A stretch of DNA of 64,000 nt from Oscillospiraceae bacterium. GTDB taxonomy: Bacteria > Bacillota > Clostridia > Oscillospirales > Oscillospiraceae. The notes beneath the pieces were generated by a model that worked only from the letters and a program-made list of their open reading frames with translations, was not told the origin of the DNA and searched no databases. The stretch's first letter is position 1, and the number at the start of each line of letters is the position of its first letter. This document shows positions 1,078-12,072 of this stretch, piece by piece. A program made the translations under genes and the position numbers. The DNA is taken from contig WQSX01000005.1 of NCBI GenBank assembly GCA_009787625.1, forward strand, positions 1-64,000. The letters are read 5' to 3'.

Positions 1078-1779
1078 CTATAGTAGGCTTATTTTTCTGC
1101 CGTTTACTGTTATTAGCCCGTCGTTTTCCATTTTGCGTAGTTCACGCGAAAGTGCGCTGCGATTTGCCAGAAGATATTCGGCTAGGGTAGTTTTTGAAAA
1201 TGGCAGTTTGATTATTATCCCCTTTTGATTTTCTCTTGTGTTGCCACTGCCTTTTTTCAGAGTGTGTAGGTAGGCTAAAATCTTGTCTCGCAGGGTTTTC
1301 TCACGCAAAATGTTTATCCTGTCGAACATCTGAAAATATTTGTCGCCAATAACTTTTAGTAGGTTTTGCACGTATCTTCTGTGGGCGCTGCACTTTTGCG
1401 CACATGTTGCAAATGTTTTTTCATATTCAATAAATGCCACCGTCACATCTGTTGCGGCATAGATTGTGACGGGGCTTTTGTGTGTTCTTGTGCTTACAAG
1501 TATTTCTCCGAATACGCTCAGTGGGGTCAGGTTTGCCATTAGTGTTTGATTGCCATAGTGTTCTTCCGCATAGGCACGCGCTTTACCGCTCAGCATTATG
1601 CCTATACTCTGTACCGAGTCTCCCGCCCTTATGATTATTTCACTTTTTGCATATTTTCGGACTACGGGGTTTAGGCAACTTAGCAGAGCCGCTGCCTTGG
1701 TTTCGTCTATTTCGGCAAATAGGTCTGTGCTGGCTAGGGTTTTTAAGTGCATTGTATCCATATTTTGCATATCTCCCAC
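1078..1779 (-). CDS. Crp/Fnr family transcriptional regulator
   Basis: cNMP-like sensor fold and C-terminal HTH (FSKTTLAEYLLANRSALSRELRKMENDGLI). Confidence 0.85.
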   Translation of the reverse strand: MGDMQNMDTMHLKTLASTDLFAEIDETKAAALLSCLNPVVRKYAKSEIIIRAGDSVQSIGIMLSGKARAYAEEHYGNQTLMANLTPLSVFGEILVSTRTHKSPVTIYAATDVTVAFIEYEKTFATCAQKCSAHRRYVQNLLKVIGDKYFQMFDRINILREKTLRDKILAYLHTLKKGSGNTRENQKGIIIKLPFSKTTLAEYLLANRSALSRELRKMENDGLITVNGRKISLL

Positions 1780-3499: not shown

Positions 3500-3521
3500 T
3501 TCAAAAGTGAGGGAATATAGC

Positions 3522-4430
3522 ATGGAGCAAGAAAAAAACAGCATCCTGATTATAGAAGATCAGGCTCTGAGTATACGTGTGCTCAGTGATATCCTGCAAT
3601 CTGATTACGCTATTTATATAGAAAAGAAAAGTACAAAGGCATTTACGACAGCAAAAACACTTTTGCCGGATTTGATATTGCTTGATATCATGATGCCTGA
3701 AAAAAGCGGATTTGAGGTTATAGCAGAACTAAAAAACGACGATGTCACCAAAGATATACCGGTTATCTTCGTAACAGGGCTTTCAAATCCGGAAAATGAG
3801 ACGAGAGGTCTTTCAGAAGGTGCAGCAGATTATATAAATAAGCCATATACTCCTGCAATTGTAAAAATGCGTGTACAGCATCAAATGATGCTTGTAAACC
3901 TCATACGAAAGCTTCAAATGTTAAGCTCAACCGATGAGCTGACAGGTCTTAGAAATCGCAGAGACTTTATGTCGACCCTTCAACGCGAGTGGGGGCGAGC
4001 TAAGCGTGATAAAAGTTCGCTTGGCGTTTTGATGATTGACATTGATTATTTTAAAGACCTAAATGACACTTATGGCCATATTAACGGGGATGTTGCGCTT
4101 GTTCAAGTCGCCCAAGTGATAAGGTCGCAGGCTAAACGGCCAGCTGATATGGTTGCACGGTGGGGCGGAGAAGAGTTTGCGGTGATTTTACCGAGCACAC
4201 ATAAAGAAGGTGTTGGCATTGTTGCGGAGGTAATACGCAAGGCAATCGAAAATCATAAACTCTTAATCGGTGGACAAAGCCCGATAAGCATAACGGTTAG
4301 TATTGGCACAAACTGTATCACACCTAATCGAGACGAAGCTTACACGGCAGAAGATTTGATTTCTGATGCAGACAAAGCTCTCTACAAGGCTAAGCAAGAT
4401 GGGAGAAATAGGGTATGCGCTCATCAGTAG
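3522..4430 (+). CDS. Response regulator diguanylate cyclase (REC-GGDEF)
   Basis: REC phosphoacceptor LPDLILLDIMMP; RWGGEEF active site; upstream RPAD (RxxD I-site); ATG with RBS gtgaggga. Confidence 0.92.
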   Translation: MEQEKNSILIIEDQALSIRVLSDILQSDYAIYIEKKSTKAFTTAKTLLPDLILLDIMMPEKSGFEVIAELKNDDVTKDIPVIFVTGLSNPENETRGLSEGAADYINKPYTPAIVKMRVQHQMMLVNLIRKLQMLSSTDELTGLRNRRDFMSTLQREWGRAKRDKSSLGVLMIDIDYFKDLNDTYGHINGDVALVQVAQVIRSQAKRPADMVARWGGEEFAVILPSTHKEGVGIVAEVIRKAIENHKLLIGGQSPISITVSIGTNCITPNRDEAYTAEDLISDADKALYKAKQDGRNRVCAHQ

Positions 4431-7617: not shown

Positions 7618-7765
7618 TTTTTCCTGTGATTGTCGTAGGTGATTGGCGGTTTGTCTTGCTGTCACATTGTAAAAGTTCAGTGAACATGGGCTTTTTGGAG
7701 TCTTTTCTCTTCACTTTCACTCTGAAGTGTGCTAGAATAAAGTTTTAATTGTGGAGGTGGAGCTT

Positions 7766-9013
7766 GTGAAAATTGCGCTTGGAATGATTGTTCCTCGTTT
7801 GAGTTCTTGTGTTGAGATTATGAGTTTTATTGATAATGCTTCTCGATATGGACACGAGCTTGACTGTGTTATTGTTGCTCATTCGCAGACTAATGATTCG
7901 GCTGTTGTGAAGAGTATTCGCGAGAAAGTTACTCTTCATTTGATTGATGTTATGAATCCTGAGTTTTGTTTTGAAAAACTGACTCGTCTTGACTCACGGG
8001 GGTCTTTTCGTGACAGGCTTTTGCGTTGCCCTGTTGCTTCGGACAGGGGGCTTGTGCCTTATGGTTTTAACCGCTCTTTGGTTGTCATTGAAGCTATTTT
8101 GCGTGGGATTGATATTTTATTTTTTACAGATTCTGATGTAGTTCCGTCGGTGCTTAAAAAGGTTGAGGGTGGACAGTTAGGTAATGAACAATTTGTGGAG
8201 GATATTGATTTTTTCGGTGTGCATCTTAATCACTTAAATACCAGAAGTGACGCCACCACCGGAGAATATAGCGGGTACAACATTTTGCCGCTTGCGCAGT
8301 TTGACCATATGGAAGATCTTCTTTTTGGTGTCCAAAAAGAGGGTATGCTTGATTATTGGCAGACTAGCTCTGAGCATCGTGGGCTTGTTTATCAGCCTGA
8401 TGATATTGTGGTTAAGCCCTCTAATAAGGTTCTGGGCGGCAATATGGCGATTCACCTTGATTCGTTTTCGAAGCTCCCGCCGTTTTTTTCTTCAACTTAC
8501 GTATATAATGATGAGCTTTTCCTTTGTCGGGGCGAGGATACGGGGCTTGGAATCGCTCTTGCGAGTGAGTTCACTTTTTTAGGTGGCAAGGGTAAGTTTA
8601 ATTGCACCGATATTGGTATTTATCCTCTGCATGATACGTTTAAGAGCCATCCTGTTGAGCCTGATTTGAAAAATGATATTAACATACAGCAGAGGTTTTA
8701 TTATGCGCTCACCGGTTGGGTCGGGCGCAATCCTCTTCTGAATTTCATTCTCGGCAATGACTTGACTTCGATACGAGAGTTTCAGCGGGAACGTTTGGCT
8801 GTGGGGCTTGATTCGCTTTCGACATATACGTCGAACCCTAAGTTTAAGTCTGTTTTGGGGAACTTCGATGAGAGCTGGGATAATACAGACCGCTACATTT
8901 CCGAATATAAGCAGACACTTGCGGCGTGGCATTTATTTATGAAGCGGGTTGTCAAGCTTGTCGATAGCAAGTATGACGCCAATATCAGACATAGTGAATA
9001 TATAAATAATTAA
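7766..9013 (+). CDS. Putative GT-A-fold glycosyltransferase
   Basis: DxD-like FFTDSDVVPS, LGGNMAIH, RGEDTGLG; GTG start with GGAGGTGG RBS. Confidence 0.6.
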   Translation: MKIALGMIVPRLSSCVEIMSFIDNASRYGHELDCVIVAHSQTNDSAVVKSIREKVTLHLIDVMNPEFCFEKLTRLDSRGSFRDRLLRCPVASDRGLVPYGFNRSLVVIEAILRGIDILFFTDSDVVPSVLKKVEGGQLGNEQFVEDIDFFGVHLNHLNTRSDATTGEYSGYNILPLAQFDHMEDLLFGVQKEGMLDYWQTSSEHRGLVYQPDDIVVKPSNKVLGGNMAIHLDSFSKLPPFFSSTYVYNDELFLCRGEDTGLGIALASEFTFLGGKGKFNCTDIGIYPLHDTFKSHPVEPDLKNDINIQQRFYYALTGWVGRNPLLNFILGNDLTSIREFQRERLAVGLDSLSTYTSNPKFKSVLGNFDESWDNTDRYISEYKQTLAAWHLFMKRVVKLVDSKYDANIRHSEYINN

Positions 9014-9112
9014 TTGTAGGGGTGAACTGTGTTCGTCCGTCGGTGAAAGCCACACTAACGAGAAAATGAAATTTTTTATAGCTTGGCGCAGTGGAAAGGA
9101 ATGGTGTTTTCA

Positions 9113-10300
9113 ATGAAAATTTTACTTATTAATCATTTTCCGCTTGAAGGCTCCGGGAGTGGAACGTACACTCGCAATATTGCTGTGCATTTGACCAAGA
9201 AGAACCATGAAGTTGCTGTTGTCTTGCCTGAAAATACGATCAATTTTTCCCGGGTTGCGGATGTTGAGCTTATCCCTGTCTATTTCAAATATGAGGAGCA
9301 GATTGATGGAGCTCTCCCGTTTAATTTTCCCTGCTTTACCACGCATCCCCGTAGCTCTATGACTTTTTACGACATGAGTGACGAGCAGATTTCTCTCTAT
9401 ATTTCTGCTTTTGAGAGAGTTATTTCGGAAACCGTTGAGAAATTTAAGCCCGATATAATTCATGGTCAGCATATTTGGCTACTCAGTTGGCTTGCGATCA
9501 AGACCGGTGTGCCGTTTGTTGTCACTGCGCATGGGACTGACCTTATGGGTTATAACAAGGGTTTGAATTTTAGAACATACGCTGAGGAAACTGCACGTGA
9601 GGCTAATAGGATTATCACCATTTCTAATGATAACAATGCGCTTGTGCGTGAACTGTTTCCGTATAGTGCGGACAAGGCTGTTTTTATGCAAAATGGTTAT
9701 GATACAGGTAGGTTTTATCCTGAACCTGCTTCGCCCGATAAAATTGAGGATATGTTTAATATCTCTCTTAAAAAGAAGCTTGTTTTGTTTGTTGGGAAGT
9801 TGGCGCATTTTAAGGGAGTTGATGTTCTCATTGAGGCAGTGCGGCTCTACGAGCGTGATTATCCCGATGATATTACCACTATTATTGCAGGTGCGGGTGA
9901 GCTTGAATCTGCTTTGAGGTTGCAGGCTCAAGAGGCAAATCTTGATAGTTTGCATTTTGTGGGGCATATGGATATCACTCGGCTCCGTGCGCTTTACAGC
10001 TCCGCAGATGTCAGCATTGTGCCGTCTCGGCGTGAGCCGTTTGGGCTTGTGGCTATTGAAGCTCTCGCCTGTGGGTGCCCTGTTATAGCGACCAATCAAG
10101 GTGGGCTTCGGGATATTATCACCCCTGATGTTGGTTCGCTTGTTCCCGTTGAAGATGCTTCGGGGCTTGCAGATGCGATTCGTAATGAGCTTTATTCTCC
10201 TAATCGAAAAGAGCGCAGGCGTGCAGCCGCTCAGTATGCACTTAATAATTATGCGCAGGAAGCGCTTATTGATACTTTGGTTGATATTTATAATTCATAG
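9113..10300 (+). CDS. Glycosyltransferase family 4 (GT-B)
   Basis: MKILLINHFPLEGSGSGTYTRNIAVHL; LFVGKLAHFKGVDVLIEAV; SRREPFGLVAIEALACGCPVIATNQGGLRDII. Confidence 0.92.
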   Translation: MKILLINHFPLEGSGSGTYTRNIAVHLTKKNHEVAVVLPENTINFSRVADVELIPVYFKYEEQIDGALPFNFPCFTTHPRSSMTFYDMSDEQISLYISAFERVISETVEKFKPDIIHGQHIWLLSWLAIKTGVPFVVTAHGTDLMGYNKGLNFRTYAEETAREANRIITISNDNNALVRELFPYSADKAVFMQNGYDTGRFYPEPASPDKIEDMFNISLKKKLVLFVGKLAHFKGVDVLIEAVRLYERDYPDDITTIIAGAGELESALRLQAQEANLDSLHFVGHMDITRLRALYSSADVSIVPSRREPFGLVAIEALACGCPVIATNQGGLRDIITPDVGSLVPVEDASGLADAIRNELYSPNRKERRRAAAQYALNNYAQEALIDTLVDIYNS

Positions 10301-10311
10301 GAGGCAGTTTT

Positions 10312-12072
10312 ATGCGAAAGGTTGTACTTATTCCTACTTATTGGTCACGAGCTAAACGTGAATGGCGGGAGGGTGATGCTGTTTATGACCATCCTACCCC
10401 TATTGATGAAAACGGAACTCTTGCGCGCACTTTGGAGAGTATGAAAATTTTGACGGCTAAGGATTTTAAGCTGGTGCTTCTCATCTGCCCCACGACTCCT
10501 GATGTTGCCGCTGAGGCGGAGCGGCGTGTTCTTGAGATTATTCATGATGTGAATTTACATGCGGAGACGTATATCTTCACTATTTCTGATCTTGCTCGGA
10601 TTGCCGATGTCATGTTTGAGGAAGATACCGAGCGTAAGGTTGCGCCGCTGCTCAATATGTCGGGTTATGCAAATGTCCGAAATATGTGTTTGCTTTGTGC
10701 TGATATTCTTTCGGCGGATGCGGCGATTTTAATAGATGATGACGAGGTTTTTGAAAAAGCTGACTGGGTTGAGCGCAGTGTTGAATTTCTTGGCAAGCGC
10801 ATTTACGGCGATGTGGTTTATGGCATGGCTGGTTACTACACTAATAAGTATGACCAGTATTACGACGATGTCAAAATGGAGCATTGGATGACTTACTGGG
10901 ATAGGTTTGGGTTTAAGGCTAAGGCGTTTGACGAGATTATCGGCAGTGCGCCGCGAGTTAAGCGCACGCCGTTTGCGTTTGGCGGTGCTATGATTATTCA
11001 CCGTGATATGTTCCAAAGTGTGCCGTTTGACCCTGAGATCACCAGGGGTGAGGATATCGACTACGTTATAAACAGCAGAATGTATGGTTTTTCGTTTTTC
11101 CTCGACAATACTTTGTCGATTAAGCATTTACCTGTTCCGAAAAAGCATCCGCAGTGGAAGCGGATTCGTGAGGATATTTACCGTTTTGTTTACGAGCGTG
11201 AGAAGATTGCTTCGCAGGTTAAAAAGGGCAACATGGTTATGGTCACACCTGAGGATTTTGACCCTTATCCGGGTGTGTTTTTGCGGGAAGATTTGGACGA
11301 AAAAATATTCCGCTCAAACATGATGCTTGCAACGGATTATATGATGAAAGGCGACAGCGAGGGCGCTCTTGAGTCAATGAACAATATTATGATTGCCACT
11401 AAGGATGCCAAGCCTAAGTTTAATGCTTTTGCCAAGTATCGCAAGACACAAAAGCTCTGGGAACTTATGTGCGAGGTTGTTGCACATAATCGCTATGAAC
11501 TCCGAAAGATTATGGAAGAACATAATATCACGAATCACCCGATTGTCAGAAATGAGCAGAGTGTGCGCCAACTCGGTAAAGAAGAGATTGTTGCGGCACT
11601 CCACAAGGTGTTCGACTTTGAATTGGGTGATGATGATTGGAAAGCTCTTGCCGACAGGTTTTTTGTCAAGACGTTCTTTGAGGATGAAATGCTCTTTAGG
11701 AGCGGTGATTTCAATGAGACTATGTACATAATTCTCAAAGGTGAGCTTATGCTCTTTGCAGGCACGCATAAGACGGGCGGTGAGATTGAAATTGCCCGCC
11801 TTGCTAAAGGTGATATTTTGGGTGAAAGTTGTCTGAAAAATCAGCCGTTTACATTAAACTGCCGTGCTATTCAGTTCACTGAACTAATCGGCATTGACCG
11901 CCGTGATATTTACAAGCTGATAGAGAGCCGCCCTGAGCTGGGTGTAAAGTTCTATCAGCAGGTGCTTGTAAAGGTCGTCGGCAAAATGCGGACTAATAAT
12001 CTCTACAACATGAGTATAGGCGGCGGCACTGTGCTAGAGGCGGTGCACGACGCTACAATTGTTCCGGATTAG
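10312..12072 (+). CDS. Putative GT-A glycosyltransferase fused to C-terminal cyclic-nucleotide-binding-like domain
   Basis: N-terminal ILIDDDEVF, FGGAMIIHRDMF, TRGEDIDYV; C-terminal LFRSGDFNETMYIILKGELMLF...IARLAKGDILGESCL. Confidence 0.75.
   Translation: MRKVVLIPTYWSRAKREWREGDAVYDHPTPIDENGTLARTLESMKILTAKDFKLVLLICPTTPDVAAEAERRVLEIIHDVNLHAETYIFTISDLARIADVMFEEDTERKVAPLLNMSGYANVRNMCLLCADILSADAAILIDDDEVFEKADWVERSVEFLGKRIYGDVVYGMAGYYTNKYDQYYDDVKMEHWMTYWDRFGFKAKAFDEIIGSAPRVKRTPFAFGGAMIIHRDMFQSVPFDPEITRGEDIDYVINSRMYGFSFFLDNTLSIKHLPVPKKHPQWKRIREDIYRFVYEREKIASQVKKGNMVMVTPEDFDPYPGVFLREDLDEKIFRSNMMLATDYMMKGDSEGALESMNNIMIATKDAKPKFNAFAKYRKTQKLWELMCEVVAHNRYELRKIMEEHNITNHPIVRNEQSVRQLGKEEIVAALHKVFDFELGDDDWKALADRFFVKTFFEDEMLFRSGDFNETMYIILKGELMLFAGTHKTGGEIEIARLAKGDILGESCLKNQPFTLNCRAIQFTELIGIDRRDIYKLIESRPELGVKFYQQVLVKVVGKMRTNNLYNMSIGGGTVLEAVHDATIVPD

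Follow-up and report, generated by a model that had tools for sequence, protein, structure and literature searches.

The locus

The window, by which we mean the whole 64,000-nucleotide stretch of gut-bacterial DNA that was analysed, carries on its forward strand a set of three genes, numbered here in the order in which they lie (Table 1). In gene 2, Glycos_transf_1 (133.7 bits) and Glyco_transf_4 (70.6 bits) both match above cut-off; judged from the family consensus, its start is probably the ATG at 9113. Gene 3 joins a predicted glycosyltransferase to a cyclic nucleotide-binding (cNMP)-like domain. Its frame begins with an ATG, is free of internal stops, and has exactly the limits given in a preliminary description of this DNA. 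That description had named a stop or frameshift between the two halves as an observation that would count against a fusion, and the window frame contains none. All of the motifs that it quoted are also present (ILIDDDEVF, FGGAMIIHRDMF, TRGEDIDYV, LFRSGDFNETMYIILKGELMLF and ARLAKGDILGESCL).

Table 1. Positions in the window of the three genes and of the domains and motifs of the gene 3 protein
Feature	Position	Strand	Basis or remark
Gene 1, GT-A-like protein	7751..9013	+	420 aa; no Pfam family; conserved partner
Gene 2, GT4-type (GT-B) glycosyltransferase	9083..10300	+	Pfam profiles
Gene 3, GT-A transferase + cNMP-like domain	10312..12072	+	586 aa, one ORF; 44 homologs aligned
Glycosyltransferase module, aa 1-400	10312..11511	+	GT-only homolog alignment, GT-A/GT2 fold matches, secondary structure
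DDDE, aa 142-145, putative DxD-type metal/NDP-sugar site	10735..10746	+	49/49 homologs
GG, aa 224-225, within PFAFGGAM motif	10981..10986	+	49/49 homologs
RGED, aa 245-248, xED-type catalytic motif	11044..11055	+	49/49 homologs
His272, candidate further metal ligand	11125..11127	+	49/49 homologs; analogy to MtdL His287 only
cNMP_binding/CRP-like domain, aa 441-560	11632..11991	+	PF00027 match; Foldseek to CRP, PKG, SthK structures
Phosphate-binding cassette, aa 498-520	11803..11871	+	Glu505 at 11824-11826; Phe513 at Arg position, 11848-11850
Long C-terminal helix, aa 541-579	11932..12048	+	Model; position resembles CRP dimerisation helix

Two predicted folds in one protein

The C-terminal CAP_ED/cNMP fold proposed beforehand is borne out by a Pfam profile search, in which PF00027 (cNMP_binding) matches residues 454-539 (E 7.7e-14; it scores 51.9 bits, where the cut-off is 27.5); the same profile is present in 28 of 44 aligned family proteins, the window protein counted. 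An AlphaFold2 model of the fusion, built from the 44-homolog alignment, has a mean pLDDT of 86 and a pTM of 0.74, so the mutual placement of the two halves is unsure. Foldseek comparison of this model with the PDB gave CRP, PKG and SthK structures at a probability of 1.00, and when the sequence of the domain is searched against the PDB, the Bd1971 entries 6hq2-6hq7 rank among the top matches. A family 2B encapsulin was also matched, implying that cNMP-like domains occur on non-receptor proteins. The extent of the domain, unlike its fold, had to be corrected, to approximately residues 441-560 plus the C-terminal helix. By analogy, this helix may be a dimerisation helix; the model is of a monomer, and dimerisation and allostery are carried over from CRP and Bd1971.

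The N-terminal half is more distant from described families. Pfam yields nothing above threshold in the first 440 residues of the window protein, PDB sequences include no relative of this half, and NCBIfam returns sub-threshold matches only and no family name. A profile search of the kind suggested beforehand gives no match to this half of the window protein itself and a few matches in its relatives: PF13632 (Glyco_trans_2_3) matches in five of 44 family members (best 1.8e-5), and PF00535, absent from the window protein, in three of 44 homologs (best 0.017). Because the full-model search against the PDB gave only cNMP-containing proteins among the matches listed, we also searched a library of viral models to bring out the transferase half. 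This returned GT2-like, DPM-synthase-like and GtrB models (E 1e-6 to 1e-7) over approximately 300 or more columns. Sequence and model together therefore support the prediction of a GT-A-type transferase, as first described, and each half of the model is backed by fold searches.

In the secondary structure of the model, the transferase module comprises a GT-A core to about residue 300 and a helical subdomain at about residues 313-402. The preliminary description had recognised two halves correctly and had read these helices as a linker; since they are conserved in relatives lacking the cNMP domain, they are part of the transferase module. Residue conservation was counted over 49 homologs with the full module, and Asp250 is invariant in all of them, as are the motifs of Table 1. 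An active GT-A enzyme that uses a metal would be expected to show such conservation.

Distribution and origin of the fusion

A scan of one genome per species, covering 85,462 species, yielded 55 loci. Fusions of about 580 residues occur in Oscillospiraceae metagenome-assembled genomes (MAGs), Christensenellaceae, Lachnospiraceae, Fusibacter, Acidaminobacter, Peptoclostridium, Acetoanaerobium, Cloacimonadota and an Armatimonadota MAG, so that the suggested census of domain architectures finds the same arrangement in Clostridia, Cloacimonadota and Armatimonadota. Transferase-only forms of about 410 residues were found in Methanolobus, Methanococcoides, Syntrophoarchaeum, Thermoplasmata, Zixibacteria, Nitrospirota, Marinimicrobia and Aminicenantes. 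The family is rare, being present in 3 of the 388 genomes sampled from the class (the window's own counted) and in 13 of 18 genomes of the same genus. The transferase-only homologs from Methanolobus, Methanococcoides, Zixibacteria, Nitrospirota and others have the same module, approximately 44-49% identical and with the same invariant residues. They differ from the fusions in having no cNMP domain and in fixed substitutions, an example being residue 226 (GGNM rather than GGAM).

The fusion is real. That assembly or gene calling artificially joined two genes has a negligible chance of being right, and we regard it as excluded. One locus points that way: in an Oscillospiraceae MAG (L035:6980-8754), the halves lie in different frames with a 10-base overlap, which is either an error or a real split. 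Against this, the frame is uninterrupted at the remaining 30 fusion loci, which span several phyla; they include isolates of Peptoclostridium, Fusibacter, Acidaminobacter and Acetoanaerobium as well as Cloacimonadota and Armatimonadota MAGs, and in the circular record of Acetoanaerobium noterae the unbroken fusion stands with genes 1, 2 and 3 in order. Among plasmid records there was a single match, a 2.6 Mb A. noterae record; phage records gave no family match.

In a maximum-likelihood tree of the transferase module, all 31 fusions fall, with support of 100/99, into one clade of 32 rows. The remaining row is a transferase-only protein from a Chloroflexota MAG (L047), which lies inside the fusion clade on a long end branch. 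The tree requires two changes between the fused and transferase-only states, and its simplest reading is one fusion event followed by one later loss nested in the fusion clade. The absence of the cNMP domain from L047 implies that the domain is dispensable there.

A conserved three-gene set

Clustering of all neighbouring ORFs revealed a linkage that the preliminary description had missed: gene 3 belongs to a conserved set of three glycosyltransferases. Gene 2 adjoins the fusion at 31 of 31 loci and gene 1 at 30 of 31, on the same strand and mostly with short or overlapping spacers; the order is 1-2-3 in Clostridia as opposed to 1-3-2 in Cloacimonadota and Armatimonadota. By contrast, neither partner adjoins the gene at any of the 18 loci of the transferase-only clade, and gene 1 was not found anywhere in the 14 genomes of that clade that were searched. 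A strict need of the fusion for gene 1 was nevertheless rejected, as the cNMP domain persists at one locus (L031) that lacks gene 1. Separately, at a locus in a single-contig genome (L087, genome G390), the gene 1 profile match has one internal TAA stop, with genes 2 and 3 also there.

A Pfam search of 31 gene 1 members gave no credible match. By profile comparison, gene 1 is distantly homologous to the transferase module of the fusion, the similarity covering the GT-A core (E 1.2e-7, probability 94%). The gene 1 model (pLDDT 90) adopts a GT-A fold, with MtdL (GT75) and GpgS as its closest structures; MtdL is the best PDB fold match (E 1.1e-7), with TM-scores of 0.43-0.49 at 11-13% identity. 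Distant relatives of gene 1 lie at other loci in approximately 3% of the sampled genomes of the class.

Among the neighbouring ORFs, no membrane partner, flippase or polymerase was consistently linked to the set. We considered guessing the product from other neighbours and rejected this, because GalU, MurJ, leucyl aminopeptidase and AsnB-Dph6 are all lineage-specific. MurJ is a neighbour in a Cloacimonadota/Armatimonadota subclade, leucyl aminopeptidase in a Peptostreptococcaceae subclade, and GalU adjoins the set in three related genomes of one Clostridia subclade. No product is therefore inferred beyond a weak hint, from GalU, of UDP-glucose. In Methanolobus and another Methanosarcinaceae MAG, the transferase-only gene is preceded by a fusion of glutamine amidotransferase/asparagine synthase with Dph6 diphthamide synthase; this AsnB-Dph6 gene lies at L073:160-2412, and the same cluster is present at L058, L060, L063, L065 and L066.

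A diverged pocket

In cyclic-nucleotide receptors, a glutamate of the phosphate-binding cassette contacts the ribose 2'-OH and an arginine contacts the phosphate (PMC11555346). The glutamate, Glu505 in the window protein, is retained in all 32 fusion proteins, across Clostridia and Cloacimonadota. The arginine is found in none; its position is occupied by Phe in 13, His in 11 (mostly in Cloacimonadota), Tyr in three, Ile in two and Ser, Met or Val in three. The caution first voiced about this arginine was thus well placed. L001 and L002, two cNMP domains from the window's own genome that were aligned alongside as controls, both carry the canonical Glu and Arg, so the loss in the fusion is not an organism-wide trait. 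Within the cNMP region, only Gly465, Gly477, Glu505 and Ala519 are conserved at 95% or above. Among close relatives, however, pN of this half is 0.06-0.16 against a pS of 0.78-0.92, with synonymous sites near saturation, implying that the domain is under purifying selection and is not decaying. The invariant glutamate and this strong selection fit a working pocket or interface; Glu505 might also be structural only.

Cyclases are unevenly present. A class III cyclase was detected in 15 of 29 cassette-bearing genomes, the window's own among them, and not in the other 14; no CYTH (class IV) protein was found in 16 of 19 cassette-bearing genomes searched; and in Peptoclostridium litorale, Acidaminobacter sp. 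JC074 and Acetoanaerobium pronyense neither type is detectable. Outside the window, the same genome has a class III cyclase domain and L001 and L002 within approximately 12 kb (G000:C6 43699-44235, 49535-49801 and 55865-56131), L002 lying about 5.3 kb from the cyclase. These likely form a separate cyclic-nucleotide circuit.

Other genes with related domains were seen in passing. The window encodes a CRP/FNR-type regulator (1078-1779, minus strand) with His at the cassette Arg position in a profile alignment, and, approximately 6 kb upstream of the fusion, a response regulator fused to a GGDEF diguanylate cyclase (3507-4430, plus strand). An Anaerolineaceae ORF of 1088 residues (L080:6977-10243) carries numerous WD40 repeats after a cNMP domain that contains the Arg.

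Proposed role and alternatives

We propose that the gene 3 product is a soluble, divalent-metal-dependent GT-A glycosyltransferase, which would work with the GT-A-like gene 1 enzyme and the GT4 gene 2 enzyme to build one small glycan on an acceptor, probably from UDP-sugars. The CRP-like domain, gained once by fusion, would regulate the transferase; most likely it dimerises the enzyme through its C-helix, and its diverged pocket most likely binds a small molecule other than cAMP or cGMP. Transferase activity would then follow the level of a metabolite. Taken as a whole, this reading of a transferase with a regulatory domain seems to us rather probable, the non-cAMP ligand being its least certain step.

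The alternatives concern mainly the C-terminal domain. The preliminary description had suggested allosteric control by a nucleotide second messenger, and a classical switch of this kind would have the domain bind cAMP or cGMP despite its His, Phe or Tyr, and toggle the transferase as in Bd1971 or MtPat. The complete cNMP fold and invariant glutamate are consistent with this, as are the class III cyclases in about half of the cassette-bearing genomes; the His in 11 of the proteins could contact the phosphate, and Bd1971 (PMC6717892) and mycobacterial Pat (PMC8556138) are precedents. Yet the arginine is missing from every fusion protein although L001 and L002 retain it, the cyclases are absent from many of the genomes, and in Bd1971 cellular c-di-GMP rose with the pocket change R67D just as it did on deletion (PMC6717892). 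The universal loss of the arginine and the existence of fusion genomes without detectable class III or CYTH cyclases together make a classical cAMP/cGMP switch unlikely, and the original suggestion is not upheld. Somewhat better placed, with perhaps a minority chance, is a purely structural domain that binds no ligand and would serve for dimerisation or as a scaffold, placing the transferase or keeping the three gene products together in a complex. Such a role would suit the degenerate cassette, the long CRP-like C-helix, the encapsulin match and the sparse conservation of the region, but it does not obviously require a glutamate that is invariant from Clostridia to Cloacimonadota. We therefore favour a retuned ligand pocket, a dimerisation role, or both, over cAMP/cGMP control.

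A different possibility concerns the transferase half, which might act as an NDP-sugar mutase that depends on a metal, or might glycosylate itself, in the manner of GT75 proteins (MtdL/RGP). Gene 1, its homolog, has MtdL as its best fold match, and the DDD motif and downstream His of gene 3 recall those of MtdL (PMC9937993). The TM-scores and identities of that match are low, however, and searches of the window protein and of the gene 1 and gene 3 families gave no RGP profile match. Moreover, the stretch from DxD to GG contains no invariant Arg in gene 1. In MtdL, the nucleophile Arg159 lies about 48 residues past the DDD (PMC9937993), whereas the first invariant Arg in gene 3, Arg215, lies 71 residues after Asp144, a test of spacing without superposition. 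The fold matches of gene 3 itself are GT2-like, and we consider a GT75-like activity quite improbable.

The glycosyltransferase reading carries a broader, more tentative extension, to which we give somewhat less than an even chance: that this is a hitherto undescribed cross-phylum three-glycosyltransferase system whose CRP-like sensor has been retuned from cyclic nucleotides and now recognises something else, such as a nucleoside, a nucleotide sugar or a pathway product. If so, a retuned sensor on one enzyme would place glycan building under direct feedback or feed-forward control. A fusion that is spread over several phyla, is under selection and is tied to two partners, one of them without a Pfam family, points to an uncharacterised pathway in anaerobes.

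Comparison with known systems

The transferase half resembles the GT-A enzymes of GT2, GT81 and GT75 (GT2-like enzymes, GpgS and MtdL) in its fold, its DxD-type and xED-type motifs and its late His, but its sequence, with neither a PDB relative nor a Pfam glycosyltransferase match in the window protein, is too distant for assignment. In the open-access papers that our search covered, we found no description of a cNMP domain on a glycosyltransferase. Both parts of the idea have precedents: enzymes with cNMP domains are known, as are glycosyltransferases under nucleotide messengers. Bd1971 of Bdellovibrio bacteriovorus (PMC6717892) likewise joins a CRP-like domain to an enzyme, with a proposed C-helix dimer; unlike the fusion, it has the reverse domain order, an EAL c-di-GMP phosphodiesterase and a cassette (FGEMALIDNQNRSA) that retains its arginine, Arg67. 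The mycobacterial cAMP-regulated protein acetyltransferases MtPat and MsPat (PMC8556138) also combine a cNMP domain and a transferase that it controls in one chain, but their transferase is a GNAT acetyltransferase, their domain binds cAMP and they have no linked glycosyltransferases. HfsJ of the Caulobacter holdfast (PMC8846402) is a glycosyltransferase controlled by a nucleotide messenger; its ligand, however, is c-di-GMP, and that paper mentions no cNMP domain. Set beside these systems, the fusion family is a natural setting in which to ask what a CRP-like pocket binds when the phosphate-contacting arginine is gone and the glutamate is kept.
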